Below, one piece after another: positions 4,234 to 20,592 of a DNA stretch of 64,000 nucleotides. Position 1 is the first letter of the stretch, and each line of letters opens with the position of its first letter. A program made the translations under genes and the position numbers. The notes beneath the pieces are model-generated. The model was not told the origin of the DNA, searched no databases, and worked only from the letters and a program-made list of their open reading frames with translations. Source of the stretch: Frankiales bacterium (GTDB lineage: Bacteria > Actinomycetota > Actinomycetes > S36-B12 > CAIYMF01); assembly GCA_016125335.1 (NCBI GenBank), contig WGLY01000003.1, forward strand, positions 62,001-126,000, given 5' to 3'.

Positions 4234-4334
4234 CCGGCGGGAGGGCCGTAACGCCGACGAAACATTCGTCGGGAACGAACATGTCACAAACCTCCCCATT
4301 CGGGCCCCCATGAGGTAGGAATGCCGCACGCCGG

Positions 4335-4352
4335 ACTGACCCACGGGTCAGT
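4335..4352. promoter_or_regulatory. Candidate TetR operator, site 1 (importer promoter)
   Basis: ACTGACCCACGGGTCAGT is a perfect 8-bp inverted repeat with a 2-bp centre, 44 bp upstream of the importer start codon and inside the divergent region shared with the S9 peptidase. The pattern ACTGAC-N6-GTCAG recurs at 10353 and, less perfectly, at 14971 next to a TetR gene. This is the most symmetric copy. Confidence 0.68.
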
Positions 4353-4396
4353 TGCGACCGGGTGGAGGGCCCGGCGGCGTCACGGAGGGAACGAGC

Positions 4397-6313: not shown

Positions 6314-6324
6314 GGCACCGGCGC

Positions 6325-7359
6325 GTGGCCCTGCTCACCGACGCACCGTCCCACTCCGCCGCCCCCGGGCGGCGGAGTGGGCGGCTGAGCCCCGGCGTCC
6401 GCTACGCCCTGCGGCGGACGCTCACCGCGATCAGCACGCTCGTGTTCGTCGTGCTGTTCAACTTCTTCCTCTTCCGTGTGATGCCCGGCGACCCGATCGG
6501 GCTCTACACGCGCGGGCGCAACGTCGACGCCGACCAGATCCGGGCGCTGCGCGAGGCGCTCGACAAGCCGCTGATCCAGCAGCTGTTCGAGTACCTCAAG
6601 AACCCGTTCTCCCAGGGCGTCGACTCGGTGAAGTACTCCCAGCCCGTCTGGGACGTCATCGGCCCGCGCGTGTGGCCCACGCTGCTGCTCGTGGGCAGCG
6701 CGACCGTCATCGCGACCGTCGTCGGCGTGTGGCTGGGCATCCGCAGCGGCTGGCGCCGCGGCGGCCGCTTCGACACGGTGGCCACCAACGTCACGCTGGT
6801 CCTGTACTCGATGCCCGAGTTCTGGTTCGGCATGATCATGCTGATCGTCTTCGCGGTCGGCGTCGGCCCGATCCCCGGCATCTTCCCGATCGGCGGGCTG
6901 TCGACCCCGGGCGTCGACACCTCGTCGCCGGCCGGCTGGCTCGACGTCGCGTTCCACCTCGTCCTGCCGGTCACCACCCTCGCGGTGATCTACCTCGCGG
7001 AGTACTCGCTGATCATGCGCGCGTCGATCATCGAGGAGACCTCCCAGGACTACCTCCAGACCGCACGGGCCAAGGGGCTCATGGACAAGCGCGTGCGCCA
7101 GCGCCACGCCGTGCCCAACGCGCTGCTGCCCACCATGACCCTGGTGTTCCTGAACCTCGGGTTCGTCGTGGGCGGCGCGATCACGATCGAGTACGTCTTC
7201 TCCATCGACGGGCTCGGCTCGCTGACCGTCGACGCGCTCCAGGGCCCCGACGTGCCCCTGCTCCAGGCGCTGTTCCTGCTCTTCTCGGCCGCCGTCATCT
7301 TCGCCAACCTGGTGGCCGACCTCATGTACGGCCTGCTCGACCCGCGGGTGCGCACGTGA
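6325..7359 (+). CDS. ABC transporter permease, DppB/OppB type
   Basis: The first membrane subunit of the peptide-type importer. The 344-residue protein has an N-terminal helix (LVFVVLFNFFLF), the conserved RVMPGDP motif after it, a periplasmic segment, and then five further helices. The cytoplasmic EAA loop that contacts the ATPases is near residues 235-265 (DYLQTARAKGLMDKRV). The GTG at 6325 was taken as start, 11 bp after the receptor stop; it gives a short hydrophilic N-terminus before the first helix. The stop overlaps the GTG of the next permease as GTGA, so the two are probably translated together. Confidence 0.92.
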   Translation: MALLTDAPSHSAAPGRRSGRLSPGVRYALRRTLTAISTLVFVVLFNFFLFRVMPGDPIGLYTRGRNVDADQIRALREALDKPLIQQLFEYLKNPFSQGVDSVKYSQPVWDVIGPRVWPTLLLVGSATVIATVVGVWLGIRSGWRRGGRFDTVATNVTLVLYSMPEFWFGMIMLIVFAVGVGPIPGIFPIGGLSTPGVDTSSPAGWLDVAFHLVLPVTTLAVIYLAEYSLIMRASIIEETSQDYLQTARAKGLMDKRVRQRHAVPNALLPTMTLVFLNLGFVVGGAITIEYVFSIDGLGSLTVDALQGPDVPLLQALFLLFSAAVIFANLVADLMYGLLDPRVRT

Positions 7360-8282
7360 GCGCGCCGGAGGCGGCGCCTCCCACCACCTCTCCCATGTCG
7401 GCCCGCGGGATCGTCTGGGCCCGTCGCCGGGCCGCGACCCGGCGGTTCCTCGCGGCGTTCGGCCGCAGCCGCAGCGGCATGTTCGGCCTCGCCGTGCTGG
7501 CGTTCTTCGTCGTCGTGGCGCTCATCGCCCCGATCGTGTTCCCGCGCAGCGTGCTCGACGTCATCAACGCCACCGGCGAGCCGTTCTCGCCGCCCTCGCT
7601 GGAGTTCCCCCTCGGCACCGACGACTCGGGCCTCAGCGTGCTCGCGCTGGTGATGTGGGGCGCCCGGATCTCGCTGCTCGTCGGCCTGGCCGCGACCGTG
7701 CTCTCCATGCTGATCGGCACGACCGTCGGGATCTCCGCGGGGCACTACCGCGGATGGGTCGGCGGCGCGCTGGACCGCCTCACGGACTGGTTCCTCGTCA
7801 TCCCCTACCTGCCGCTGGCGATCGTGCTGGCGACGGTGCTGGGCCGCTCGCTGCTCAACATCATCATCGTCATCGGCGTCACGTCGTGGCCGGGCACCGC
7901 GCGCATCATCCGGGCGCAGACCCTGTCCGTGGAGGGCCGGCCCTACCTCGAGCGCTCGAAGGCCCTCGGGGCGGGCAACGTCCACCAGATGACCCGGCAC
8001 GTGCTGCCGAACGTGATGCCGCTGGTCCTCGCCAACACCACGCTGGCGGTCTCGATCTCGATCCTGTCCGAGACCACGCTGTCCTTCCTCGGCCTCGGCG
8101 ACCCCGACAACGTGTCGTGGGGGTCGATCCTCGAGCAGGGCTTCGCGCAGGGCGCCATCTCGCAGGGCGCGTGGTGGTACCTCGGCGCACCCGGTGTGTG
8201 CGTCGTGCTCGTCGTCCTGGCGTTCAACCTCATCGGGCGCGCCATCGAGGGGATCCTCGACCCGCACGGAGAGGCTGCCTGA
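7356..8282 (+). CDS. ABC transporter permease, DppC/OppC type
   Basis: The second membrane subunit of the importer, 308 residues. It has the N-terminal DppC-type helix (FGLAVLAFFVVVALIAPIVF), a periplasmic region ending in PLGTDDSG, which is characteristic of OppC proteins, and five further helices. The EAA loop lies around residue 195 (YLERSKALGAGNVHQM). The gene starts with GTG overlapping the previous stop, and its own stop overlaps the ATG of the ATPase gene (TGATG). Tight coupling at both ends supports equal production of the complex. Confidence 0.92.
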   Translation: MSAPEAAPPTTSPMSARGIVWARRRAATRRFLAAFGRSRSGMFGLAVLAFFVVVALIAPIVFPRSVLDVINATGEPFSPPSLEFPLGTDDSGLSVLALVMWGARISLLVGLAATVLSMLIGTTVGISAGHYRGWVGGALDRLTDWFLVIPYLPLAIVLATVLGRSLLNIIIVIGVTSWPGTARIIRAQTLSVEGRPYLERSKALGAGNVHQMTRHVLPNVMPLVLANTTLAVSISILSETTLSFLGLGDPDNVSWGSILEQGFAQGAISQGAWWYLGAPGVCVVLVVLAFNLIGRAIEGILDPHGEAA

Positions 8283-9274
8283 TGGCCCTGCTCGAGTTCG
8301 ACGACGTCAGCGTCACCTACCGCTCGCGCGGCGCCGACGTGCCGGCGGTGCGCGGCGTCACGCTGTCGGTGGACGCCGGGGAGACCCTCGGCATCGCCGG
8401 GGAGTCCGGCTGCGGCAAGACGACGCTCACCAGCACCGTCCTGCGGCTGCAGCCCAAGTCGGCCCGGGTCACCGGCGAGGTGCGGCTCGACGGCAAGGAC
8501 GTCCAGAAGCTGAGCTGGGGCAAGGTGCGGGCGCTGCGCTGGGCCAAGGCCTCGATGGTGTTCCAGGGCGCCATGCACGCGCTCAACCCGGTGCAGCGCA
8601 TCGGCGACCAGCTCGCCGAGCCGATCCTGCTGCACGGGCGCGGCAGGGTGAGCCGGTCGGCCGCGGCCGCGCGCGTCGGCGAGCTGCTGGAGATGGTGGG
8701 GCTGCCCGCCCGCCGCGCGCGGGCCTACCCGCACCAGCTCTCGGGCGGCCAGAAGCAGCGCGTGATGATCGCCATGGCGCTCGCCTGCGAGCCCGCCCTC
8801 ATCGTCGCGGACGAGCCCACCACGGCGCTCGACGTCATGGTGCAGGCGCAGGTCCTCGACGTCCTCAGCGCGCTGGTGCGCGACCTCGGCGTCGGCATGG
8901 TGTTCATCAGCCACGACCTGTCCGTGCTGTCCAGCACCTGCGACCGGATCGCCGTCATGTACGCGGGCAAGGTGGTCGAGGAGGGGCCGGCCGGCTCGGT
9001 GTTCGACGAGCCCCGCCACCCCTACGCCGGTGCGCTCGCCGGCGCGTTCCCGCGCATCGGCGACACCCGCTACCGCTACGCCCCGGCCGGCCTGCCCGGC
9101 GACCCGCCGTTCCCAGGCGACCTGCCCGAGGGCTGCACGTTCCACCCGCGGTGCCCCGTCGCCGTCGACGCGTGCCGCACGACCGAGCCGCCGCTCGTCG
9201 AGCGCGACGGCCGGCGCACCGCGTGCCTGGTCGCCAACGGACAGGCCGCCCCGAGCCAGGAGGTGCCCGCGTGA
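8282..9274 (+). CDS. ABC transporter ATP-binding protein, DppD/OppD type
   Basis: One of the two importer ATPases, 330 residues. Walker A is GESGCGKT at residues 40-47, the signature is LSGGQKQR near 152, and Walker B is LIVADEPT near 173, followed by the switch histidine in FISHDLSVL. The C-terminal peptide-transporter extension is present, including the cysteine motif CTFHPRCPVAVDAC that in related proteins can hold an iron-sulfur cluster. The ATG overlaps the upstream stop, and the stop overlaps the GTG of the partner ATPase. Confidence 0.93.
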   Translation: MALLEFDDVSVTYRSRGADVPAVRGVTLSVDAGETLGIAGESGCGKTTLTSTVLRLQPKSARVTGEVRLDGKDVQKLSWGKVRALRWAKASMVFQGAMHALNPVQRIGDQLAEPILLHGRGRVSRSAAAARVGELLEMVGLPARRARAYPHQLSGGQKQRVMIAMALACEPALIVADEPTTALDVMVQAQVLDVLSALVRDLGVGMVFISHDLSVLSSTCDRIAVMYAGKVVEEGPAGSVFDEPRHPYAGALAGAFPRIGDTRYRYAPAGLPGDPPFPGDLPEGCTFHPRCPVAVDACRTTEPPLVERDGRRTACLVANGQAAPSQEVPA

Positions 9275-10272
9275 GCGCGCAGCCCACGACCGCCACGGCA
9301 GCCGCCCTCGAGGCGCGCGGGGTCGCAGTGGCCTTCCGCGGCCGGGGCGGCGGCGGGACCGCGTGGGCGGTCGACGGCGTCGACCTCGTGGTGGGCCGCG
9401 GCGAGATCGTGGCTCTGGTGGGCGAGAGCGGCTGCGGCAAGACGACCCTGGCCCGCACCCTGCTGGGGCTCGAGCAGCCGACGTCGGGGCAGGTGGCCGT
9501 CGACGGCGTGCCGCTCGCCTACTCCACGCGCGCGCTCAAGGCCGCCCGCCGCCGTCTCCAGCTCGTGCTCCAGGACCCCACCGGCGCGCTCAACCCGCGG
9601 CACACCGTGTACGAGGCCGTCGCGGAGGGCCTGCGCATCCACGGCGTGGAGGGCGACGAGCGCGAGCGGGTGGCGACCGCCCTCTCGCTGGCCGGGCTGC
9701 GCCCGCCGGAGCGGTTCTTCCTGCGCTACCCGCACGAGCTCTCCGGCGGCCAGCGCCAGCGCGTCGTCATCGCCGGCGCCCTCGTGCTCGAGCCCGAGGT
9801 GATCGTCGCCGACGAGCCCGTGTCGAGCCTCGACGCCTCCGTGCGCGGCGAGATCCTCGCCCTGCTGCTCCGGCTCCGCGACGAGCTCGGCCTCTCGCTG
9901 CTCGTGGTGACCCACGACCTCGGGCTGGCCTGGAACATCGCCGACCGCGTGGCGGTGATGTACCTCGGGCGCATCGTCGAGCAGGGCCCGACCGAGGAGC
10001 TGCTGTCCGACCCGCGCCACCCGTACACCCGCGCGCTGCTCTCGGTCGTGCCCGAGGTGGACCGCATCGAGCCGGTGGTGCTCACCGGGGAGCCGCCGGA
10101 CCCCACCAAGGTGCCCAGCGGCTGCCGGTTCCACCCGCGCTGCCCGGTCGTCGCCTCCGGGGAGGCGGCCCGGCTGGGGATCGAGGACCGCTGCCGCACG
10201 GTGGCGCTCGACGTCCTGCCCTCGGCCCCGGGCCACTCCGCCGCGTGCCACGCGCTGCAGCTCCAGGGCTGA
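9271..10272 (+). CDS. ABC transporter ATP-binding protein, DppF/OppF type
   Basis: The partner ATPase, 333 residues. Walker A is GESGCGKT near residue 51, the signature is LSGGQRQR near 156, and Walker B is VIVADEPV near 178, with the histidine switch in VVTHDLGLA. The DppF-type C-terminal extension has CRFHPRCPVV. It starts with GTG inside the stop of dppD and ends the importer operon; a 111-bp gap with its own promoter-like element follows. The full set of receptor, two permeases and two ATPases makes a complete importer. Confidence 0.93.
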   Translation: MSAQPTTATAAALEARGVAVAFRGRGGGGTAWAVDGVDLVVGRGEIVALVGESGCGKTTLARTLLGLEQPTSGQVAVDGVPLAYSTRALKAARRRLQLVLQDPTGALNPRHTVYEAVAEGLRIHGVEGDERERVATALSLAGLRPPERFFLRYPHELSGGQRQRVVIAGALVLEPEVIVADEPVSSLDASVRGEILALLLRLRDELGLSLLVVTHDLGLAWNIADRVAVMYLGRIVEQGPTEELLSDPRHPYTRALLSVVPEVDRIEPVVLTGEPPDPTKVPSGCRFHPRCPVVASGEAARLGIEDRCRTVALDVLPSAPGHSAACHALQLQG

Positions 10273-10352
10273 GTCCCGGCGACCGCCGGCGTCCAGAGCC
10301 CGGAGAGCAGGGCGGCGAGCCCTTCCGCAGGCGCCGAGGCAAGGCCATACTT

Positions 10353-10370
10353 ACTGACTGGTGAGTCAGC
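10353..10370. promoter_or_regulatory. Candidate TetR operator, site 2
   Basis: ACTGACTGGTGAGTCAGC matches site 1 in both half-sites (ACTGAC-N6-GTCAG). The inner palindrome CTGACT-GGTG-AGTCAG is perfect. It directly abuts the AGGAGGAGG ribosome binding site of the gene starting at 10384. CATACT at 10346-10351, just upstream, could be a -10 element, so a bound repressor would cover the transcription start. Confidence 0.65.
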
Positions 10371-10383
10371 AGGAGGAGGCCGG

Positions 10384-12021
10384 GTGACGCAGGAGTACGA
10401 CGTCGTCGTCGTCGGCGGCGGCCACAACGGGCTGGTCGCGGCCGCGTACCTCGCGCGTGAGGGGCTGCGCACCGTCGTGCTCGAGCGCCGTCACGTCGTC
10501 GGCGGCGCGGCCGTGAGCGAGCAGCCGTTCGGCCCGGACTTCACCCTCACGAGCCTGTCGTACGTCGTCTCGTGGCTGCCGCCCGCGCTCGTGCGCGACC
10601 TCGACCTCGTGCGCCACGGCTACCACGTCTACCCGCAGGGCCCGTACTTCGCGCCGCGCGTCGACGGCCGCTACCTCCAGCTGCCCGACGACCCGGCCGC
10701 GCGCCGGGAGCAGATCGCGAAGTTCTCCGTGCGCGACGCCGACGCGATGCCGCGCTGGGACGCCTGGATGGACGGCCTCGGGCGCGTGCTCGGCCCTCTG
10801 GTCACCGAGATCCCGCCGAAGGTCGGCTCGCGTCGTCCCGCCGACCTCGCGCGGCAGGCGCTGCTGCTGCGCCGGCTGCGCGGCGTGGACGAGCGCACCG
10901 CGGTCGACCTCACCCGCCTGCTCACCAGCAGCGCGGCCGACCTCATCGAGGACACCTTCGAGTCCGACGCCGTGCGCGGAGTGCTGTCGGTCTCCGCGGT
11001 GATCGGCTCGTGGGCCGGCCCGCGCACCCCGGGCACGGCGTACGTCATCGCGCACCACCACATCGGCGACCTCGGCGACGGGCGGATCGGCGCCTGGGGC
11101 TTCCCGCGCGGCGGCATGGGCGGGGTGACGCAGGCGCTCGCCGCGGCGGCCCGCTCGTTCGGTGCCGAGATCCGCACGCAGGCGCCGGTCGCCCGCATCA
11201 CGACCCGCGACGGCAGCGTCACCGGCGTCGCACTCGAGGACGGGACCGAGTTGACGGCGGGCACGGTCGTCACCACGGCGCACCCGCAGATCTCGTTCCT
11301 GCGCCTGCTCGACCCGGCCGAGCTGCCGCCCGGCTTCGTCGACGACATCCGCCGCTACAAGTCGCGCAGCGGCACGGTGAAGGTCAACGTGGCGCTCGAC
11401 CGGCTGCCGGAGTTCACCAGCCGGCCCGGCTTCGACCCCGCGGTCCACGGCGGCACCATCGTGCTGTCCGAGAGCCTCGACGAGGTCGAGGCGTCGTTCC
11501 AGGAGGCGGCCGCCGGGCAGCCGAGCACGCTGCCGTTCGCGGACATCTGCATCCCCAGCGTCTTCGACCCCACGCTGGCGCCCGAGGGCAAGCACGTCAT
11601 GAGCATGTTCACGCAGTGGGTCCCCCACACGTGGAACGCCGAGCCGCACCGGGCGGAGCTCGACGCCTACGCCGACCGCCTCTTCGCCCGCATGGACGCC
11701 GTGGCCCCCGGGTTCAGCGACTCCGTGCTGCACCGGCAGGTGATCGGGCCGTACGACATCGAGCACGAGTACGGCCTCGTGGGCGGCAACATCTTCCACG
11801 GCGAGCTGACGATGGGGCAGATGTTCCACGCCCGTCCGGCCGCGGGGTACGCGGACCTGCGCACGCCGGTGCGCGGCCTCTATCAGGCCGGCTCCGCCAC
11901 GCACGGGGGCGGCGGCGTCACCGGAGTCCCGGGGCGCAACGTCGTGCACCAGATCCTCGGCGACCGGCGCCGCGCGCAGTGGCGGTCCCGCGCGCACCTG
12001 CCGTCGCGGCGCGGGGGCTGA
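10384..12021 (+). CDS. FAD-dependent oxidoreductase, phytoene desaturase/PYROXD2-like
   Basis: A 545-residue amine-oxidase-fold flavoprotein. The N-terminus has the dinucleotide-binding glycine motif in VVVVGGGHNGLVAA, then the ERRHVVGGAA segment typical of phytoene-desaturase-like proteins. The C-terminal FAD-contact region is LYQAGSATHGGGGVTGVPGRNV. No carotenoid synthesis gene (crtB, crtE) is nearby, so carotenoid desaturation is unlikely here. The neighbours (importer, Rieske oxygenases, sarcosine-oxidase-like enzyme) favour oxidation of an imported small molecule. It starts with GTG after a strong AGGAGG, and heads a run of three genes spaced by 3 bp or overlapping. The reaction is unknown. 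Confidence 0.85.
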   Translation: MTQEYDVVVVGGGHNGLVAAAYLAREGLRTVVLERRHVVGGAAVSEQPFGPDFTLTSLSYVVSWLPPALVRDLDLVRHGYHVYPQGPYFAPRVDGRYLQLPDDPAARREQIAKFSVRDADAMPRWDAWMDGLGRVLGPLVTEIPPKVGSRRPADLARQALLLRRLRGVDERTAVDLTRLLTSSAADLIEDTFESDAVRGVLSVSAVIGSWAGPRTPGTAYVIAHHHIGDLGDGRIGAWGFPRGGMGGVTQALAAAARSFGAEIRTQAPVARITTRDGSVTGVALEDGTELTAGTVVTTAHPQISFLRLLDPAELPPGFVDDIRRYKSRSGTVKVNVALDRLPEFTSRPGFDPAVHGGTIVLSESLDEVEASFQEAAAGQPSTLPFADICIPSVFDPTLAPEGKHVMSMFTQWVPHTWNAEPHRAELDAYADRLFARMDAVAPGFSDSVLHRQVIGPYDIEHEYGLVGGNIFHGELTMGQMFHARPAAGYADLRTPVRGLYQAGSATHGGGGVTGVPGRNVVHQILGDRRRAQWRSRAHLPSRRGG

Positions 12022-12024
12022 CCC

Positions 12025-13182
12025 GTGGTCGCGATGCAGGCGGCGCTCCCCCGGGAGCACTACGTCGACGCCCGCCTGCACGCGGTCGAGCGCGACCGCG
12101 TGCTGGCCCTGGAGTGGACCTGCGTCGGCCGCCTCGACGACCTCGGCCTCACCGATCCCGGCTCCACCACGCTGCGCCCCGAGCGCCTCGCCGTGGTGGA
12201 CCTGCACGGCGAGTCCGTGCTCGTCACGACGGACGCCGACGCCGTCCTGCGCGCCCACTACAACGTGTGCCGCCATCGCGGCTCGCAGGTGGTGCCGGCG
12301 CCGCCGGACGAGCCGGCCCCCGCGCCGTGCGCGGCGCGGTCGCTGCGCTGCCCGTACCACTCCTGGACCTACGCCACCGACGGCCGGCTGCTGCACGCGC
12401 CGCACACGGACGGCGTCGACCTCGACCCCGCCGCCTTCGCGCTGCACCCGCTGCGCGCCGACCGCTGGGGCGGCTGGCTGTGGCTGAGCCTCGCCGCTGA
12501 CGCCCCGCCGGTGCGCGAGGCGCTCGCCCCCGTGCCCGAGCGCGTGCGCCGCTACCCGCTCGAGTCGCTCGTCGTCGGGCGCCGGCTGCGATACGAGGTG
12601 GCCGCCAACTGGAAGGTCGTCGCGGAGAACTACAACGAGTGCTACCACTGCGGGCCCGTGCACCCGGAGCTCTCGAGGCTGGTGCCCGCCTTCGCCGGCG
12701 GCGGCGCGGACCTCACCTGGGACGACGGCGTCCCGCACCGCGAGGGCGCCTGGACCTTCACCATGTCCGGCACCAGCGACCGTTCCCCGTTCCCCGACCT
12801 CGACGACAACGAGCGCGTGCGGCACAAGGGCGAGCTGGTCTACCCCAACCTGCTCCTGTCGCTGTCGGCCGACCACGTCGCGGCGTTCGTGCTGCGCCCT
12901 CTGGCCGTCGACCGCACCGAGGTGGTGTGCGACCTGCTGTTCGCCCCGGACGAGGCGGCGCGCGACGGCTTCGACCCCTCCGACGCCGAGGAGCTGTGGG
13001 ACCTCACCAACCGCCAGGACTGGCGGATCTGCGAGTCGGTGCAGCGCGGCATGACTTCGCGCGCCTACGCCCAGGGCTGGTACGCGCCCATGGAGGACGC
13101 GTCGCTGGACATCCGCCGCTGGCTGCTGCCGCGGCTCGCCGCCGCCGGCGTCCCGGCGTCCGACCCGGGGGAGCAGGCATGA
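12025..13182 (+). CDS. Rieske non-haem iron oxygenase, alpha subunit (GbcA/CntA-like)
   Basis: The terminal oxygenase of a two-component Rieske system, 385 residues. The [2Fe-2S] ligands are Cys82 and His84 (CRHRG) and Cys109 and His112 (CPYHSW). The mononuclear iron motif ENYNECYHCGPVHPE supplies His208 and His213, with the bridging acidic residue at Glu205. This motif style is shared with oxygenases that demethylate or cleave quaternary amines (glycine betaine, carnitine, proline betaine) as well as ring hydroxylases. Company with a sarcosine-oxidase-like enzyme favours the amine reading (inference). No beta subunit, ferredoxin or reductase gene is in the cluster. A GTG start is used; an ATG three codons later is possible. 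Confidence 0.88.
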   Translation: MVAMQAALPREHYVDARLHAVERDRVLALEWTCVGRLDDLGLTDPGSTTLRPERLAVVDLHGESVLVTTDADAVLRAHYNVCRHRGSQVVPAPPDEPAPAPCAARSLRCPYHSWTYATDGRLLHAPHTDGVDLDPAAFALHPLRADRWGGWLWLSLAADAPPVREALAPVPERVRRYPLESLVVGRRLRYEVAANWKVVAENYNECYHCGPVHPELSRLVPAFAGGGADLTWDDGVPHREGAWTFTMSGTSDRSPFPDLDDNERVRHKGELVYPNLLLSLSADHVAAFVLRPLAVDRTEVVCDLLFAPDEAARDGFDPSDAEELWDLTNRQDWRICESVQRGMTSRAYAQGWYAPMEDASLDIRRWLLPRLAAAGVPASDPGEQA

Positions 13183-14339
13183 GCGGCACGTACGACCTCG
13201 CGGTGGTGGGCCTGGGCGCGCTCGGCTCCTCGACCGCCTGGCACGCCGCGCGACGCGGCCTGTCCGTGGTGGGGCTCGAGCGCTTCGAGCTCGGTCACGA
13301 GCGCGGCGCCTCGCACGACTCCAGCCGGATCCTGCGCCACAGCTACCACACGCCCGCCTACGTCGACCTCACCTTCGCCGCCTACGACGACTGGGCCGAC
13401 CTCGAGGACGCGTCGGGCCGGTCGCTGGTCACCGTCACCGGCGGCGTCGACCTCTTCCCGCCCGGCGCGGTGATCGACGCCGCCGACTACACCTCGTCGA
13501 TGGACGCGCGCGGCGTCCCGCACGAGCGGCTCGGCGTCGCGGACGTCGCCGCCCGCTGGCCGCAGCTGCGCCTCCCGGACGGCACCACGACGTTGTTCCA
13601 GGCGCGCACCGCGATCGTGCCCGCGGCGCGCGGCACGGCCGCGATGCAGGAGCGCGCGAGGGCCCACGGCGCGGTGCTGCGCGACAGGGTGACCGTGCGC
13701 TCCCTCGCCCCGCGGGCCGACGGCGTCGACCTGCTCACCGACGACGGCGTCGTGTCGGCGGCCCGGGCGGTCGTGTGCGCGGATGCCTGGACCTCCGCCC
13801 TGGTGGAGCCGCTCGGCGCCCGGCTGCCGCTGACCGTCACCGAGGAGCAGGTGACCTACTTCGCGCCCGAGGACCCGGAGGCGTTCCGCCCCGGCCGCTT
13901 CCCCGTGTGGATCTGGATGGACGAGCCGAGCTTCTACGGCTTCCCGACCTACGGCGAGGACACCGTGAAGGCCGCGCAGGACTGCGGCGGTCCCGAGGTG
14001 ACCGGCGACGAGCGCTCGATGCACGAGGACGCCGCGATGCTCGAGCGCCTCGGCGGCTTCATGGCGCGAACGTTCCCCGGATCCGGGCGGCCGGTGCGCT
14101 CCAAGCGCTGCCTCTACACGCTCACCCCGGACCGCGACTTCGTCGTCTCGGCGGTGCCGGGCGTGCCCCAGGTGGTGGTGGGCCTGGGCGCCGCGCACGG
14201 GTTCAAGTTCGCCCCCACCTTCGGCCGGCTGCTGACCGACCTCGCCACCGAGGGCACGACGGCCGCGGACGTGTCCGCGTTCGGCCTGGACCGGCCCGGG
14301 CTCACCGACCCGGAGTTCGTCGCGAACTGGATGGTGTGA
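13179..14339 (+). CDS. Sarcosine oxidase/N-methyltryptophan oxidase-like flavoenzyme
   Basis: A DAO-family flavoprotein of 386 residues, the length of monomeric sarcosine oxidase. The FAD motif GLGALGSS is at residues 11-18. Cys311, in SKRCLYTLTPD, lies where the family attaches FAD covalently. Lys343, in GFKF near the C-terminus, aligns with the oxygen-activating lysine. Such enzymes oxidise secondary or tertiary N-methyl amines, releasing formaldehyde and peroxide. The ATG overlaps the Rieske gene stop (ATGA), which implies linked expression and suggests that the oxygenase product is the substrate of this enzyme (inference). The exact amine is unknown. Confidence 0.88.
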   Translation: MSGTYDLAVVGLGALGSSTAWHAARRGLSVVGLERFELGHERGASHDSSRILRHSYHTPAYVDLTFAAYDDWADLEDASGRSLVTVTGGVDLFPPGAVIDAADYTSSMDARGVPHERLGVADVAARWPQLRLPDGTTTLFQARTAIVPAARGTAAMQERARAHGAVLRDRVTVRSLAPRADGVDLLTDDGVVSAARAVVCADAWTSALVEPLGARLPLTVTEEQVTYFAPEDPEAFRPGRFPVWIWMDEPSFYGFPTYGEDTVKAAQDCGGPEVTGDERSMHEDAAMLERLGGFMARTFPGSGRPVRSKRCLYTLTPDRDFVVSAVPGVPQVVVGLGAAHGFKFAPTFGRLLTDLATEGTTAADVSAFGLDRPGLTDPEFVANWMV

Positions 14340-14358
14340 CGTGACGGGGACGGCCGCG

Positions 14359-14958
14359 TCAGGCGAGCAGTGCGGGGTCGACGCCCAGCTCGTGGGCCGC
14401 AGCCCCGCGCACCCACTCCGCGAGCTGCTTCTTGGTGAGGTTACGGTGCACCGTGACCTGCACGGCGAGACCGTCGAGCAGCGCCGAGAGCCGCCAGGCG
14501 GCGGAGTCCGGGTCCGGGCAGCGGAAGGTTCCGTTGTCATTGCCGCGGCGGATCATCTCGGCCAGGACGTCCTTCCACCGCACGTCGAGCCGGCGGCTCA
14601 TCGCGCGCATCTCCGGCTCGCGCAGCGACTCCGACCACGCGTCCACCCACACGGTCCAGCCGTTCGCACTGCCCTCGGGGGCCCACAGCCGCAGCATGCG
14701 GCGCACGCCGTCCACCGGATCGGTGGTGCGCTCCACCACACGGTCCAGCCGCGCCATGTCGCGGCGCACGGCGTGCTCGAGCGCCTCCGCGAACAGCTTC
14801 TCCTTGGTGCCGAAGTGGTAGAAGACCAGAGCCGTGCTCACGCCGAGCGCGTCGGCGACGTCGCCCACGCGCGTGCGGGCGAAGCCGCGTCGCGTCACCT
14901 CGGCCTCGGTCGCGGCGAGGATCTCCTCGCGGCGCACCTCGACCTTCCGTCTCGCCAC
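14359..14958 (-). CDS. TetR/AcrR family transcriptional regulator (BetI-like)
   Basis: A 199-residue repressor-type protein. The N-terminal helix-turn-helix is ARTRVGDVADALGVSTALVFYHFGTKEKLF, ending in the typical TetR recognition helix. The C-terminal part resembles the ligand-binding domain of BetI-like regulators, including a tryptophan-rich stretch (NGWTVWVDAWSESL). It starts with GTG and is transcribed away from the second Rieske gene, 41 bp apart; its stop faces the sarcosine-oxidase-like gene. The ACTG-N9-TCAG element in that gap and two stronger copies at 4335 and 10353 make it the likely controller of the whole cluster, itself included. The ligand is unknown. Confidence 0.9.
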   Translation of the reverse strand: MARRKVEVRREEILAATEAEVTRRGFARTRVGDVADALGVSTALVFYHFGTKEKLFAEALEHAVRRDMARLDRVVERTTDPVDGVRRMLRLWAPEGSANGWTVWVDAWSESLREPEMRAMSRRLDVRWKDVLAEMIRRGNDNGTFRCPDPDSAAWRLSALLDGLAVQVTVHRNLTKKQLAEWVRGAAAHELGVDPALLA

Positions 14959-14970
14959 GGTCGCGACGAT

Positions 14971-14988
14971 ACTGTCGCCCCGATCAGC
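14971..14988. promoter_or_regulatory. Candidate TetR operator, site 3 (divergent regulator/oxygenase promoter)
   Basis: ACTGTCGCCCCGATCAGC keeps ACTGnC on the left and TCAGC on the right at the same spacing as sites 1 and 2, with one change in each half. It fills the gap between the TetR gene and the second Rieske gene and abuts the AGGAG ribosome binding site of the latter. GATACT at 14968-14973 may be a -10 element. Confidence 0.5.
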
Positions 14989-14999
14989 AGGAGCAGCTC

Positions 15000-16163
15000 A
15001 TGAGCACTCTCGACGACGTGTCGTCGCTCTCACCGCTCGCACCGGTCGACGCCGACGGGCTCGGTCGCGCACTGCTCCCCTTCGGCCGCAGCACGATGCT
15101 CCCGGCCGAGTCCTACACCTCCCCCGAGGTGCTCGCCTGGGAACGGCGCAACCTGGTCGCGGGGTCGTGGGCGTGCGCCGGCCGGCTCGAGGACCTGCGC
15201 GCCGGCAAGGCCACGCAGAAGGCGCTCGTGCTCGGCGACATCCCCGTGCTGCTGACCTTCGACGGGGACTCGGTCCGGGCGTTCGCCAACACCTGCCGCC
15301 ACCGCGCCCACGTGCTGCTCGAGGACGACGCGTCGTCCACGAACCGGTCCGTCCTCTGCGTCTACCACGCGTGGACCTACCGGCTCGACGGGTCGCTGCA
15401 GGGCGCACCGGGCTTCCGCAACGACGTCAACCTCGACATGGACGCGCACGGCCTCGTGCCGCTGCCGCTCACGGTGTGGCGTGGCTGGGTGTTCGTCAAC
15501 GCCACCGGCACGGCGCCGCCGTGGGACGAGCACCTCGGCGTCCTCGACGAGCTCGTCGGCCCCTACCGGCCCGAGGACCTCGTGCTCCGGGCGCGGCACA
15601 CCTACGAGATCGCTGCCAACTGGAAGCTGGTCTCGGAGAACTACCACGAGTGCTACCACTGCCCGCTCATCCACCCCGAGCTGTGCCGCGTCTCGGTGCC
15701 GACGTCGGGCGACAACCTCACCCTGCCCGGCGCGTGGGTCGGCGGCACCATGCTCTTCCGCGACGACGCGGAGACGATGTCGATCGACGGCCGCTCGGCG
15801 GGTCGCCCGATCGAGGGGGCACCGCAGGACGTGGTGCTCTACGTGCAGCTGTTCCCCAACCTGCTCGTCTCGGCGCACCCCGACTACGTCATGACCCACC
15901 GCGTGCTGCCGCTGGCACCGGACCGCACCTGGATCGAGTGCAGCTGGTACTTCCCCGGCGAGGACGTCGACCCGTCGTACGCCGTCGACTTCTGGGACCT
16001 CACCAACACCCAGGACTGGAAGGCGTGCGAGCTCGTGCAGCGCGGGCTCACCTCGCCGCACTTCTCCCCCGGGCCGTTCGCGCCCAACGAGGACGCGGTG
16101 CACCAGTGGGTGCAGATGGTCGGCCGCGGCTACCTCGGGATCGCACCGCACGTCGCACCCTGA
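15000..16163 (+). CDS. Rieske non-haem iron oxygenase, alpha subunit (second copy)
   Basis: A second terminal oxygenase of 387 residues, homologous to the one at 12025 but clearly divergent. The cluster ligands are Cys99 and His101 (CRHRAH) and Cys120 and His123 (CVYHAW). The catalytic iron motif ENYHECYHCPLIHPE supplies His220 and His225 with Glu217. The C-terminal DLTNTQDWKACELVQRG matches the block in the first copy (DLTNRQDWRICESVQRG), so both belong to one subfamily. It is divergent from the TetR gene with a shared control element. Again no reductase is encoded nearby. Two oxygenases could act on successive methyl groups or on two related substrates. Confidence 0.88.
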   Translation: MSTLDDVSSLSPLAPVDADGLGRALLPFGRSTMLPAESYTSPEVLAWERRNLVAGSWACAGRLEDLRAGKATQKALVLGDIPVLLTFDGDSVRAFANTCRHRAHVLLEDDASSTNRSVLCVYHAWTYRLDGSLQGAPGFRNDVNLDMDAHGLVPLPLTVWRGWVFVNATGTAPPWDEHLGVLDELVGPYRPEDLVLRARHTYEIAANWKLVSENYHECYHCPLIHPELCRVSVPTSGDNLTLPGAWVGGTMLFRDDAETMSIDGRSAGRPIEGAPQDVVLYVQLFPNLLVSAHPDYVMTHRVLPLAPDRTWIECSWYFPGEDVDPSYAVDFWDLTNTQDWKACELVQRGLTSPHFSPGPFAPNEDAVHQWVQMVGRGYLGIAPHVAP

Positions 16164-16210
16164 CCGGACGACGCTCCCGCCGGCACCCGGCTCCGTGCCA
16201 GGATCTGCCG

Positions 16211-17401
16211 GTGGCGCAGAGCACCGGGACCGGCGTCGGCACCGTGCCCGTGGGCCGCGGCCAGGCGCTGGCCACCGCCGCCGTCTTCGCGCTCAACGGC
16301 ACGCTCATCGCCGCGTGGATCTCGCGCATCCCGGCGACCCGTGACCGCCTCGACGTCGAGGTCAGCACCCTCGGCGTCCTGCTGCTGCTCATCGGGCTCG
16401 GCTCGCTGCTCGCGATGCCGTTCGTGGGCCGGGCCGCGTCGCGGTTCGGCTCGCGCGCGGTGGTGACCGTGACCGCGCCCGTGGCGGGCCTCGCGCTGGT
16501 GTGCGCGGCCCTGGCCCCGGGGCCGATCGGCACCGGGGCCGCACTGCTGGCCATGGGCGCGGCGTACGGCTCGTGGGACGTCGCGATGAACATCCAGGGC
16601 TCGTACGTCGACCGCCGGCTCGGGCGCGACTACATGCCCCGCTACCACGCGTGCTGGAGCGTGGGCCTCGGCGTCGGCACGGCGTTCGGCGCCCTGGCCG
16701 CGCGCCTGGCCGTCCCGCTGCCGGCGCACTTCGCCGTGGCCGCGCTGGTGTCGGCGGGGGGAGGCGTCCTGGTGGCGCGACGCTGGTACGTCGACGACCG
16801 GGAGGGTCACCGGGCGCCGGCGCCCGGCCAGGCGAGCGACCGGCCGCACCGGCTGCTCACGCGGCGCGTGGTGCTCATCGGGCTGATCACGCTGTGCGGC
16901 ACGATGCTCGAGGGCTCGGCCGGCGACTGGCTGGCGCTGTTCCTCCACGACGAGCGCGGCGCGCTGCCGAGCACGGCCGCGCTGGGCTACGCGGTGTTCG
17001 CCGTCACCATGGCGGCGAGCCGCTTCGGGGGCACGCCGGTGATCGCACGGCTCGGCCGGGCGCGGGCCGTGCGGGTGGCCGGCCTGTCCGCGGCGCTCGG
17101 CGTCGTCGCGGCGCTGGCCCTGCCCGCGATGCCGGGGATCCTGATCGGGGTGGCGCTGTGGGGCGCGGGCACCGCGCTGGTGTTCCCCGCGGCGATGAGC
17201 GCGGGCGGCGAGCAGCCGGGGCGCGCGGCCGACGCGATCGCCACCGTGTCCACCATCGGCTACGGCGGCTTCCTCATCGGGCCGCCCCTCATCGGGTTCC
17301 TCGCCGGCGCGCTGGGGCTCGGCACGGCCCTGTGGGTGCTGCCGGTGCTCGCGGCCGGCGTCGTCGCGCTCGCTCCCGTCGTCGCCCCGCCGCCCCGGTG
17401 A
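16211..17401 (+). CDS. MFS transporter
   Basis: A 396-residue major facilitator protein with about 12 hydrophobic segments and the central polar loop near residues 195-220. The loop after helix 2 reads GRAASRFGSRAV, a variant of the family's GxxxDRxGRR motif. The second half repeats the pattern (VIARLGRARAVRVAGL). It lies 47 bp after the second Rieske gene on the same strand and could export a product or import a substrate of the pathway; direction and cargo cannot be read from sequence. The GTG at 16211 was chosen because it places a short polar N-terminus before the first helix. Confidence 0.85.
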   Translation: MAQSTGTGVGTVPVGRGQALATAAVFALNGTLIAAWISRIPATRDRLDVEVSTLGVLLLLIGLGSLLAMPFVGRAASRFGSRAVVTVTAPVAGLALVCAALAPGPIGTGAALLAMGAAYGSWDVAMNIQGSYVDRRLGRDYMPRYHACWSVGLGVGTAFGALAARLAVPLPAHFAVAALVSAGGGVLVARRWYVDDREGHRAPAPGQASDRPHRLLTRRVVLIGLITLCGTMLEGSAGDWLALFLHDERGALPSTAALGYAVFAVTMAASRFGGTPVIARLGRARAVRVAGLSAALGVVAALALPAMPGILIGVALWGAGTALVFPAAMSAGGEQPGRAADAIATVSTIGYGGFLIGPPLIGFLAGALGLGTALWVLPVLAAGVVALAPVVAPPPR

Positions 17402-17473: not shown

Positions 17474-19513
17474 TTAGGCGAGGTCGCGGGGGAAGCGCCG
17501 CTCCCAGGTGCGCTCCCCCACCACGGTGTCGCCCTCCCGCGCGGTGAGCCGGATCGTCGCGTCATAGGTGACCGGGCCGGCGTGCACCTCGAGCACCGAG
17601 CGCACGTGCACCGACACCGGCTCGCCGGAGCCGTCGTCGTCGTAGCGCAGGGTGAACGACACGTCCGACGCCGCGGTCTGCGCGAACGAGCGCGTCCACA
17701 CCTGCACACGGCCGGCGTAGTGCTCGACGACGTCGCCGTAGGGCGCGTCGTAGGCGGACCCGTGGTCGACGACGCACGCCGTGGTGCGTGCGAGCACGTC
17801 GCGCTCGACGCGCCACACCACCCCGTGGGCGTCCTCGCCGGACGCCGGGTCCCCCGGCGAGAAGTCCGGCGGCGGGGGCGCCCCGGCGGGGTCGTACGCC
17901 GGGAGCTGCAACCGTGCCTCGCGCACCGTGAGGGTGACCGGCTCGGGCGGCACGGTGGTGTTGGGCCAGTCGGCGCCGGCGAGCGCGACGCGCAGCAGGT
18001 GCCCCGGACGCCACTGCCACGCCGTCGCCTCGAGCTCCACGACCACGTCGTAGGCACGGCCGGGCTCGAGCGGCTCGGCGGTGCCCATGCCTCCGCGCCG
18101 GGTCAGGTTGAGCACGCCGCGGGTGACCAGCGTGGACGTGCCGTCGCGCGCGACGTCGGTGAGCCGCACCGCAACCGTGGCCACCGGGGCCGACGCCGAC
18201 ACCGAGAGGAGCAGCCGCGGGTTGCCGGCGATCTCGAGGCCGTCCGGGTCGAGCTCCCAGGTGAGCGAGTCCGCGTCGTCGTGCCGCTGGTCGAGCGGCT
18301 GCCCGTAGGGCAAGTGGCCCGCGCACGAGATCCATGCGGCGGTGCCGACGTCGGGACGCACGTCGTAGGGCGGCTTGCCGGTGAGCGGGTACTCGACCCA
18401 CGAGGAGCGCGCGGAGGGCCAGGAGTCGGCGCGCCACTGCCCGGGCACCTCGTCGAGGTCCGGCTCGGGCCGGTGCGACGCCCGGCTGTACCAGACCGCC
18501 TCGGGCTCGCGGTCGACCCCGTTGTCGACGCCGCGCAGCCACCGGTCCCACCAGCGCACCATCTCCGGCACGAGGTCGATGCGCGGTCCCGGCAGCGACG
18601 ACGACGTCGCGGCGTGCGACCACGGTCCGGCGAGCAGGCGCCGCGGAGTGCCGTTCTCGCCCAGCCGCTCCATCGTGCGGAACGTGTTGTTGCGGTACCC
18701 GTCCGCCCAGCCCGCGACGATCATCGTGGGGCCGGCGATGCGGTCGTACGCCGGACGCACCGAGCCGTGGCGCCAGTAGTCGTCGTCGCGGGGGTGCGCG
18801 AGCCAGGTGAACAGCCACGGCTCGTGCTCCGCGATGCGCGCGCGCCACTCGTCGCGCCAGGTGGGGCCGAAGACGGCCGGCACCGGCGGGAGGGCGTTCA
18901 TCGGCGTCATGTAGTGGCAGTAGTCGACGAGGTCGAGCCAGCGGCGCAGGCCGCCCATGAGGTGCACGTCGTCCGTGTGCCGGTCGTCGGTGGCGTAGAT
19001 GGCGATGACGGCCTTGAGCTCGGGCGGTCGCTCGCAGGCCATCTGGAGCGAGTTGAACCCCGAGTAGGACGTGCCGTACATGCCGATGCTGCCGTCGCAC
19101 CACGGCTGCGCCGCGAGCCAGGCGAGCACCTCGGCGAGGTCGCGCTGCTCCTGCTCGGGGTACTCGTCGGTGGCGCGGCCGCCGCTGCTGCCCGTGCCCC
19201 GCAGGTCCAGGCGCGCGACGGCGTAGGAGTGCTCGTCGCGGAGCCGGACGTACTCGGGGCGGTAGGACGAGGTGAGGTCGTCCTTGCGGTAGGGCAGGGC
19301 CTCGAGCACGCACGGCTGCGGTCCCAGGGCCGGATCCGGGAGGTAGAGCGTGACGGCGAGGAACACGCCGTCGCTCATGGGGATCCAGGCGTCGGCCTTG
19401 GTGCCCGGTCGGGCGGCGCGGCGCTCGCCGGCGCCGGGCTGCGCGACGGTGCCCGACGCGGTCGAGGACTCGGCCGCGGACCCGTCCGCGCTCTCGTGCA
19501 GGTGCTCGGTCAC
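17474..19513 (-). CDS. CocE/NonD family hydrolase
   Basis: An alpha/beta-hydrolase with a C-terminal jelly-roll domain, the architecture of cocaine esterase and X-Pro dipeptidyl peptidase (family S15). The length of 679 residues is normal. The nucleophile serine lies in GMYGTSYSGFNS, the acid in GWADGYRNN and the histidine in GPWSHA. The C-terminal beta-rich region contains DWPNTTVPPEP, typical of the S15 C-terminal domain. Such enzymes cleave esters, amides or N-terminal X-Pro dipeptides. It starts with GTG and overlaps the P1 peptidase gene by 4 bp on the same strand, so the two are co-expressed. The real substrate is unknown. Confidence 0.9.
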   Translation of the reverse strand: MTEHLHESADGSAAESSTASGTVAQPGAGERRAARPGTKADAWIPMSDGVFLAVTLYLPDPALGPQPCVLEALPYRKDDLTSSYRPEYVRLRDEHSYAVARLDLRGTGSSGGRATDEYPEQEQRDLAEVLAWLAAQPWCDGSIGMYGTSYSGFNSLQMACERPPELKAVIAIYATDDRHTDDVHLMGGLRRWLDLVDYCHYMTPMNALPPVPAVFGPTWRDEWRARIAEHEPWLFTWLAHPRDDDYWRHGSVRPAYDRIAGPTMIVAGWADGYRNNTFRTMERLGENGTPRRLLAGPWSHAATSSSLPGPRIDLVPEMVRWWDRWLRGVDNGVDREPEAVWYSRASHRPEPDLDEVPGQWRADSWPSARSSWVEYPLTGKPPYDVRPDVGTAAWISCAGHLPYGQPLDQRHDDADSLTWELDPDGLEIAGNPRLLLSVSASAPVATVAVRLTDVARDGTSTLVTRGVLNLTRRGGMGTAEPLEPGRAYDVVVELEATAWQWRPGHLLRVALAGADWPNTTVPPEPVTLTVREARLQLPAYDPAGAPPPPDFSPGDPASGEDAHGVVWRVERDVLARTTACVVDHGSAYDAPYGDVVEHYAGRVQVWTRSFAQTAASDVSFTLRYDDDGSGEPVSVHVRSVLEVHAGPVTYDATIRLTAREGDTVVGERTWERRFPRDLA

Positions 19514-20592
19514 CGCTGCCGCCCTTCCGCCAGGATCCGGCGCACGTCGTCGACCGGCAGCGCCGGCACTGTCCGACCGTGCGCGCCCGTCACGTCGTGC
19601 GCGGCGAGCATCGAGGCCAGCACCGCCTCCTCGCTCGCGTCGACCACGGCCTCGAAGTAGCGGTCGAGCAGGCGCCCCGCCACGGTCGGGCCGGTGGGCG
19701 GGCCGCTCTCGCGCGGCGCGCGCAGCCCGAGCGCCGCCGCGAGGAAGATCTCGCCGGAGCCGTGCGTGGCCACCGAGCCGGTGCGCGCGAGCCCGAGCCC
19801 CACCCGGCGCGCGAGCCGCTCGCAGGCGGCGTGGTCGAGCGGCGCGTCGGTCACGACGACGCCGAGGCAGGACCCCGCCGGAGGCGGCGGGACGTGCGCC
19901 GGGCGGCCCAGCGCGCGGCCCACCGCGACCCCGTCGACGGTGAGGCGGTCCCACGAGCCGAAGTTCGTGAGCAGCACGACGCCGACGACGTGCCCGTCCG
20001 GCAGCACGCGCGACGAGGTGCCGATCCCGCCCTTGTGGTCGAACACCGACATCCCGGTGCCTGCACCGACCGCGCCCTGCTCGGGCGCGGTCGCGGACCC
20101 CGCGCTGCTGCGGGCCGCGGCGAGCGCCGCCGCGACGTGCTCGTCCGTCACGTGCATGTGGCGGGCGTCGTTGAGCCAGGAGTCGTCGCACTCGCCCACC
20201 GCCGGGATAACGACGTCGTCGACGCCGATCCGCGGCTGCTCGGCCATGAGCAGGCGGCAGGCGGCGTCGTAGACGCGCCCGGTCTGCATCGTCGAGGTGA
20301 GGAACACCGGCGTCTCGAGCAGCCCCCACTCGTCGATCTGGGTCCGCGCCGTGAGCTCGCCCGCGCCGTTGAGCACGGCGACCCCGGCGACGACGGGCTC
20401 GGCCCACGCGTCGCGGCCGAGGTCGACCACCGTCACCCCGGTGCGCGCGACCCCGCGGCCGAAGGGCGGCGGCGGGTCGTCGTACACGACGGTGGCGTGA
20501 CCGAGACCGACACCGGGGACGTCGACGACCGAGTTGGTCGGCCCGGTCGGCAGCGACCCGATCCTGACTCCCAGATCAGCAACGGAGGTCAT
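19510..20592 (-). CDS. P1 family peptidase (DmpA/BapA-like, self-processing aminopeptidase)
   Basis: An N-terminal-nucleophile hydrolase of 360 residues. The proenzyme cleaves itself to expose a serine; the likely site is Gly-Ser in PPPPAGSCLGVVVTDAPLDH, where the following VVVTDAPL block is diagnostic for DmpA and beta-peptidyl aminopeptidases. The N-terminal TNSVVDVPGVGLGHATV is also typical of the family. These enzymes release N-terminal residues from peptides, D-amino-acid amides or beta-peptides. The start ATG at 20592 follows a weak site; upstream in-frame codons are less conserved. It is the first gene of a two-gene operon with the CocE/NonD hydrolase. Confidence 0.9.
   Translation of the reverse strand: MTSVADLGVRIGSLPTGPTNSVVDVPGVGLGHATVVYDDPPPPFGRGVARTGVTVVDLGRDAWAEPVVAGVAVLNGAGELTARTQIDEWGLLETPVFLTSTMQTGRVYDAACRLLMAEQPRIGVDDVVIPAVGECDDSWLNDARHMHVTDEHVAAALAAARSSAGSATAPEQGAVGAGTGMSVFDHKGGIGTSSRVLPDGHVVGVVLLTNFGSWDRLTVDGVAVGRALGRPAHVPPPPAGSCLGVVVTDAPLDHAACERLARRVGLGLARTGSVATHGSGEIFLAAALGLRAPRESGPPTGPTVAGRLLDRYFEAVVDASEEAVLASMLAAHDVTGAHGRTVPALPVDDVRRILAEGRQR

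Follow-up and report, generated by a model that had tools for sequence, protein, structure and literature searches.

The 64,000-nucleotide stretch analysed here, referred to as the window, is part of contig WGLY01000003.1 of a Frankiales bacterium (assembly GCA_016125335.1; G000:C3:62001-126000 in our labelling). It carries a gene cluster that includes the alpha subunits of two Rieske oxygenases, RO1 and RO2. Within the interval 10384-16163, reading frames together with Pfam and NCBIfam scans place an FAD protein (DES), RO1, a sarcosine oxidase-like flavoenzyme (SOX), a TetR gene, and RO2. The two oxygenases, SOX and DES are thereby confirmed where a first-pass annotation of the sequence had put them. 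That annotation did not include the TetR gene (14359-14958, reverse strand), a transporter at 4397-10272, hydrolases extending to 21734, or the operator-like palindromes shared by several promoters. The features of the cluster are as follows.

4334-4353, no strand: possible TetR operator, GACTGACCCACGGGTCAGTT, upstream of the transporter operon, 12/16 consensus matches
4397-6313, forward strand: substrate-binding protein (SBP) of a peptide-type (Opp/Dpp) ABC transporter (PF00496, 5.3e-92)
6325-7359 and 7395-8282, forward strand: transporter permeases (reading frames, named by sequence reading only)
8282-9274 and 9271-10272, forward strand: transporter ATPases (reading frames, named by sequence reading only)
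10352-10371, no strand: putative TetR operator, TACTGACTGGTGAGTCAGCA, upstream of DES, 15/16 consensus matches
10384-12021, forward strand: DES, FAD protein with a CrtI/monoamine-oxidase fold, probable amine (de)hydrogenase (PF01593)
12025-13182, forward strand: RO1, group V Rieske oxygenase alpha subunit (PF00355, PF00848); the start is perhaps the ATG at 12034
13179-14339, forward strand: SOX, monomeric sarcosine oxidase-like covalent flavoenzyme (NF008425); its start overlaps the RO1 stop
14359-14958, reverse strand: TetR-family repressor with a BetI-type C-terminal domain (PF13977, 1e-22)
14970-14989, no strand: possible TetR operator, TACTGTCGCCCCGATCAGCA, between TetR and RO2, 11/16 consensus matches
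15000-16163, forward strand: RO2, group V Rieske oxygenase alpha subunit (PF00355, PF00848)
16160-17401, forward strand: MFS transporter, start codon not fixed (PF07690)
17474-19378, reverse strand: CocE/NonD (peptidase S15) hydrolase, true start possibly further upstream (PF02129, PF08530, TIGR00976)
19510-20592, reverse strand: peptidase of family S58, DmpA type (PF03576, 1.5e-91)
20562-20581, no strand: possible TetR operator, TCCTGACTCCCAGATCAGCA, near the divergent S58/HDAC starts, 12/16 consensus matches
20658-21734, forward strand: histone deacetylase (HDAC)-fold amidohydrolase (PF00850, 1.1e-67)

Both oxygenases combine a Rieske domain with a Ring_hydroxyl_A domain, and the solved structures closest to them are 3n0q, CntA, and Stc2. 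When aligned with E. coli YeaW, S. meliloti Stc2, a Burkholderia GbcA-type protein, and BphA1/BenA, RO1 displays the bridging residue E205, together with Y203, C206/C209, H208, H213, and D332; the matching residues of RO2 are E217, Y215, and C218/C221. The iron ligands and the Cys pair are kept, while a bridging Glu replaces the Asp of BenA and BphA1. A Cys206/Cys209 pair near the iron is known for CntA and Stc2 (PMC7948474). Glu205, Tyr203 and the CxxC pair occur together in 77/77 RO1-type and 29/29 RO2-type sequences showing the motif, counts in which gene copies are kept and beside which seven further RO1-type and two further RO2-type sequences are off-pattern. In a tree of 42 rows, RO1 and RO2 each form a single clade (100/100), and four aromatic-ring oxygenases split off at 100/100 along a long branch, for which the program warned of long branches meeting; the order among the group V clades is uncertain. 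A Novosphingobium row first labelled as aromatic grouped with GbcA/Stc2, leaving four aromatic rows rather than five. The bridging Glu, the Cys pair near the iron, and the tree position are hallmarks of group V, the quaternary-amine oxygenases. They bear out the first-pass description of both proteins as quaternary-amine-type alpha subunits, and the tree that it had proposed as a check sets them apart from the four aromatic-ring enzymes. An AlphaFold model of RO1 built from nine rows was too poor (pLDDT 52.3) and was set aside.

Group V is divided by residue 203. According to PMC7948474, this residue is aromatic in the enzymes for carnitine, choline, and benzalkonium (CntA, choline monooxygenase, and OxyBAC; group Va) and Asn in the glycine betaine (GbcA) and stachydrine (Stc2) demethylases (group Vb). 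RO1 and RO2 carry the aromatic residue of group Va (Y203 and Y215) and not the Asn of group Vb. Their best NCBIfam match is NF058607 (GbcA), at 169.3 and 154.2 bits against a cut-off of 670, which the Burkholderia GbcA-type row also fails to reach (472.2 bits). Together, the Tyr at position 203 and the scores below the cut-off speak against classing the two proteins with GbcA and Stc2, and betaine demethylation by RO1 and RO2 is not assured.

SOX aligns with monomeric sarcosine oxidase (MSOX), and Cys311, which the first-pass annotation had named as the flavin-attaching residue, falls at the position of Cys315, to which the flavin of MSOX is attached. The protein passes the cut-off of NF008425 (293.6 bits against 257) and lies under that of TIGR01377 (227.1 bits against 479.65). 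Six of its residues, R50, R53, K264, C311, Y313, and K343, are invariant in 46/46 distinct homologues, the window copy included; they correspond to MSOX R49, R52, K265, C315, Y317, and K348. SOX accordingly possesses the flavin Cys, the two active-site Arg, and the two Lys of the family of MSOX and N-methyltryptophan oxidase (MTOX). It differs from MSOX in having Asp in place of His269. The substrate is likely to be a small N-methyl amino acid or an amine carrying a carboxylate. Two relatives, G012 and G014, retain the transporter ATPase, SOX, TetR, and MFS genes at one place without RO1, RO2, and DES, which suggests that SOX performs the last step of the pathway.

The wider distribution of the cluster was surveyed by scanning genomes with the RO1 alignment and keeping the best 80 of 97 candidate loci. 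Because many of the contigs are short, the locus counts are minimum values; 29 loci are flanked by 9 kb on each side. Record titles include Nanopelagicales, Mycobacteriaceae, Nocardioides, Kineosporia, Geodermatophilaceae, Streptomyces, Acidimicrobiia, Chloroflexi, Acidobacteria, and Proteobacteria. SOX adjoins RO1 in 47/80 loci. A gene of the dimethylglycine dehydrogenase (DMGDH) type is found instead in 10 (eight matching the relatives' protein at 81% or more, two partial at 28-29%), and never alongside SOX. This pattern lends support to the stepwise N-demethylation put forward in the first-pass annotation. At least three of the five transporter genes are present in 47/80 loci, and CocE, S58, and HDAC labels in 53, 18, and 19, respectively. 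DES at 60% or more occurs in 12 of the 80 and any DES label in 19 (5/29 among those flanked by 9 kb on each side), while 13 have RO2 at 55% or more. In mycobacteria and at most Nocardioides loci, the RO1-SOX pair comes without the window-type DES and RO2. Among 31 loci inspected, 14 contain an S9-like and eight an M20-like peptidase, both named by reading only.

Several further observations concern these homologues. Relatives from a different family of the order have their RO2 homologues in a second conserved cluster (L111, L113, L114, L115, and L117) with varying combinations of a class III aminotransferase, an acyl-CoA dehydrogenase, an ADP-forming CoA ligase, a cupin, a PotABCD-type transporter, and a DMGDH-type gene; L111, L113, and L114 also include DES and a GcvT-like gene. 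Four loci titled Bifidobacterium breve (L187, L192, L198, and L203) hold Nanopelagicales-like RO1 clusters, and the titles look wrong. Interrupted RO1-like and Stc2-like frames were seen in the records of a plasmid of Rhizobium sp. RCAM05350 (L119) and of pSymA of S. meliloti ml21 (L121).

Regulation was approached through a palindrome whose consensus was taken from the sequences that precede DES in the window and in L171-L176, L183, and L213. A site with at least 13/16 matches precedes DES or RO1 in 13/13 loci with TetR and 0/50 without. The test covered 77 of the 80 loci (three were dropped, with an RO1 match under 45% or a position too close to the contig start), and 14 of the 77 were left out of the comparison as the contig is too short at the TetR place; two of these, L171 and L249, have sites of 15 and 13. 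All six loci that are independent of the consensus (L188, L191, L207, L212, L214, and L244) contain the palindrome. Within the window, the site upstream of DES had no match in 100 shuffles. A Markov model predicts 0.23 sites per window at 12/16 or better and 2.8 at 11/16 or better; the window sites at SBP and S58/HDAC are weak alone, and that at RO2 is not significant by count alone. The pattern TACTGNC-N7-TCAGYA, written after both sites were known, has two matches in the window, one ahead of DES and one ahead of RO2, and none in 100 shuffles. Since the presence of TetR coincides with the palindrome and the pattern precedes both genes, it is very likely that one TetR controls the DES/RO1 operon, presumably by binding to the palindromes. 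The same TetR probably controls RO2, and the transporter and hydrolases may perhaps answer to it too, as parts of one pathway.

In agreement with the first-pass annotation, the interval 10384-16163 contains no reductase domain. The search of the genome for GbcB/CntB-like reductases that it had recommended returned a single frame that combines an FNR with a plant-type ferredoxin domain. This frame (C17:321525-322496) is 39% identical to YeaX and unlinked to the cluster. Flanked by P450 and VanA-like Rieske genes, it is the middle member of an operon of three (G000:C17:320261-323565; L021:7261-10565). A family search of 25 oxygenase-bearing genomes found neither a homologue of this reductase nor a frame with both PF00175 and PF00111 in 14 of them (G001, G004, G005, G008, G034, G035, G039, G041, G048, G050, G054, G055, G057, and G060), eight of which are at least 90% complete. 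The two domains were paired by hand; G036, which has a broken C17-type fragment, stands outside the 14, and G111 was scored as having a reductase. Labels for YeaX, Stc4, GbcB, PDR, and the C17 reductase occur in 0/80 loci of the RO1 scan. With no such reductase found in 14/25 genomes or in any of the 80 loci, the lack of a dedicated partner is a family trait. Another class of oxygenase reductase (PF14759) is present in 21/25 genomes, the others being G036, G048, G054, and G074, and has three matches in this genome. G048 (97% complete) and G054 (95%) carry RO1 beside SOX, plus RO2, with neither reductase class. The family searches also brought up single-domain frames, some of which, by sequence reading only, look like ferric reductase, PyrK, the small subunit of xanthine/CO dehydrogenase, SdhB, and NuoG; Fer2 frames of about 620-640 amino acids occur in several relatives.

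A general ferredoxin system is the best explanation for the missing reductase, and RO1 and RO2 would probably obtain their electrons from a general pair of ferredoxin and ferredoxin-NADP reductase. Two loci elsewhere offer a lead, not a proof, as to the donor. The locus of Streptomyces sp. NEAU-Y11 (L222) begins with an RO1 homologue (55%); next come an oppositely oriented TetR gene and the genes for a TrxR-like ferredoxin reductase and for a ferredoxin that matches Fer4 and reads like the 7Fe type. Oxygenase, reductase, and ferredoxin lie within 3.4 kb. A Priestia plasmid locus carries an oxygenase (30% identical to RO1, with Phe at CntA position 203), solA, a DMGDH-type gene, a BCCT transporter, and a reductase 42% homologous to the Streptomyces one.

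DES yields a good structure model (pLDDT 86.2). Its best fold match is the carotenoid desaturase 4rep (Z 31.9, 16% identity), followed by amine oxidases and renalase; these structural searches yielded a fold for DES and no function. DES scores under the curated NCBIfam cut-offs of CrtO (228.1 against 1000) and crtI_fam (116.4 against 238.1), and neither an NAD(P)H-reductase nor an iron-sulphur domain is among its Pfam matches. In 13/13 genomes of the order inspected, DES paralogues of 40-43% identity adjoin a GcvT-like gene of about 399 amino acids, as if the two were the split flavin and folate halves of a DMGDH-type enzyme. Proteins at 53-55% to DES have a GcvT-like neighbour in G004, a fused DMGDH-type one in G011, and no GcvT-like neighbour within the stretch viewed in G003. 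Outside the order, the neighbours are mixed: a GcvT-like gene in L200, a partial DMGDH-type match in L216 and L245, and no GcvT/DMGDH-type gene beside DES in L226, L229, and L248. The fold, the absence of reductase or iron-sulphur domains, and the GcvT-paired paralogues mean that a role as amine dehydrogenase fits better than one as electron carrier for the oxygenases. DES shares its fold with 4rep and monoamine oxidase and differs from them by its low identity and by a neighbourhood that suggests amine oxidation.

Known systems resemble parts of this cluster. The carnitine monooxygenase CntA/CntB (YeaW/YeaX) agrees with RO1 and RO2 in its Rieske and catalytic domains and in the bridging Glu205, the Cys206/Cys209 pair, and Tyr203. 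However, YeaX adjoins YeaW, whereas the window cluster has SOX, DES, and hydrolases instead of a reductase. The betaine demethylases GbcA/GbcB and Stc2/Stc4 are likewise group V oxygenases, and N-methyl oxidases follow the oxygenase in the known GbcA/Stc2 pathways. They are unlike RO1 and RO2 in having Asn at 203 and an adjacent reductase, and they occupy a separate tree clade. The reductase encoded alongside the oxygenase in the two-component GbcAB and CntAB systems has no counterpart here. A parallel is provided by the caffeine N-demethylases NdmA/NdmB/NdmD, in which two Rieske N-demethylases operate without one-to-one pairing with their reductase (PMC12445004). NdmD is nevertheless part of the Ndm system, while no such reductase is linked to the window cluster.

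Taken together, the cluster is best read as a TetR-controlled catabolic regulon for the import, hydrolysis and stepwise N-demethylation of a conjugated N-methylated compound by oxygenases without a dedicated reductase, a reading to which we give an even chance. Gene content, conservation, motifs, TetR/palindrome co-occurrence, and reductase distribution were computed, and from these we infer the substrate, the order of steps, the electron route, and TetR binding. The peptide-type transporter would bring in the conjugated compound, from which the CocE/S15, S58, and HDAC-like enzymes may free the N-methylated amine or amino acid. RO1 and RO2, judging from family and motifs, would each oxidise an N-methyl group and release formaldehyde, and SOX, with covalent FAD, would oxidise the last secondary N-methyl group. 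DES would act as a further flavin amine dehydrogenase. A conjugated N-methyl compound is more likely as substrate than a free betaine; dimethylamides, N-methyl cyanopeptides, and cocaine-like compounds have been considered. The group V oxygenases fit the quaternary amine route of the first-pass annotation, but a free simple quaternary amine is doubtful because the cluster contains a peptide-type transporter and several amide/ester hydrolases.

A number of observations weigh against such a regulon. The genomes that keep SOX without RO1 and RO2 (G012 and G014) hold a distant oxygenase (about 30%) elsewhere, G008 has DES and RO2 without RO1 and SOX, and G005 has both oxygenases and DES and no SOX. 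Among the 29 loci flanked by 9 kb on each side, six lack any SOX, DMGDH, or TMADH-like label. One of the six is the Streptomyces locus, which also lacks transporter and hydrolase labels, and in Priestia the reductase lies on the other strand behind a transporter gene. Palindrome matches are weak at the promoters of SBP, RO2, and S58/HDAC, and many such promoters in relatives lack the site; the best sites there reach 8-12 of 16 matches at SBP (once 14), 8-13 at RO2, and 8-14 at HDAC. Most of the relatives' genomes are incomplete drafts. Lastly, since Tyr203 marks group Va and the betaine N-demethylases carry Asn, RO1 and RO2 may possibly cleave a C-N bond or hydroxylate elsewhere.

That last point leads to an alternative in which RO1 and RO2, like CntA, hydroxylate a quaternary amine or cleave its C-N bond without N-demethylation, and SOX acts on a different product. 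In favour of this alternative, both oxygenases have Tyr where CntA has Y203, in line with the aromatic residue of the carnitine, choline, and benzalkonium enzymes. Yet N-methyl-oxidising enzymes of the SOX or DMGDH type share the RO1 locus in 57/80 cases, and the Priestia oxygenase, which has an aromatic residue (Phe) at 203, is accompanied by solA, a DMGDH-type gene, and a BCCT transporter. We regard CntA-like chemistry as unlikely. An ordinary glycine betaine pathway, from betaine through dimethylglycine and sarcosine to glycine, is quite improbable. The BetI-type domain of TetR, SOX residues suited to sarcosine-like substrates, GbcA as the top NCBIfam match, and two DMGDH-type genes elsewhere in the genome all point towards it, but the oxygenases fall far short of the GbcA cut-off (as, to a lesser degree, does the Burkholderia GbcA-type row), have Tyr rather than Asn at 203, and are accompanied by a peptide-type transporter and hydrolases.

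Other proposals concern the supply of electrons. In this genome, the C17 CntB/YeaX-like reductase could act in trans on RO1 and RO2, being the only frame of that class found in it and related to YeaX, and the sharing of one reductase by two N-demethylases has a precedent in NdmA/NdmB with NdmD (PMC12445004). Against this stand the neighbours on either side of it (P450 and VanA-like Rieske genes) and its lack of a match at 1e-15 in the sister genomes G005, G006, G008, and G010, which have the whole or part of the cluster (G006 and G010 possess another frame with FNR and plant-type ferredoxin domains). Across 166 genomes of the order, 17/45 oxygenase-bearing genomes have it (Fisher p 0.25, not significant). 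The shared reductase of the first-pass annotation therefore finds one candidate in the genome, although not a conserved partner, and we consider its service to RO1 and RO2 doubtful. That DES itself hands electrons to the oxygenases, as the same annotation had also suggested, is very improbable. The genes are adjacent, and 35 of the 39 DES-bearing genomes among the 166 also bear an oxygenase, a count uncorrected for relatedness; however, close homologues of DES occupy few RO1 loci, its fold is that of amine oxidases and desaturases with no reductase or iron-sulphur domain, and its paralogues are coupled to GcvT-like genes.

A broader version of the regulon for conjugated N-methyl compounds is more speculative, and we think it rather unlikely as a whole. 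It proposes a widespread and so far undescribed regulon for N-methylated peptides or other amide/ester-linked N-methyl amines. A peptide transporter and peptidases would supply two Rieske N-demethylases adapted in evolution to the general ferredoxin system of the cell, each originally with its own flavin oxidase (RO1-SOX and RO2-DES). If these ideas are true, they would assign a function to a cluster common to aquatic actinobacteria, mycobacteria, Nocardioides, Kineosporia, and others. They would also mean that some quaternary-amine-type Rieske oxygenases operate without a cognate reductase, and would add to the bacterial routes from methylated nitrogen compounds to formaldehyde and C1 units. 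Cultured bacteria that carry the cluster, Nocardioides and Mycolicibacterium stellerae among them, would allow both the regulon and the electron donor to be tested directly.

No description of this gene module was found in the literature searched by title and abstract opening. Peptide-type uptake of proline betaine has reportedly been studied; a search for that work gave no fitting title. Two minor observations were made along the way. The record NZ_CP077849.1 is an Acinetobacter baumannii sequence of 3.66 Mb filed as a plasmid. Elsewhere in the genome, G000:C4:78001-98000 (L025) reads like an aromatic meta-cleavage cluster, with a Rieske gene and small Rieske ferredoxin-like, PEP-synthase-like, and glyoxalase-like genes.

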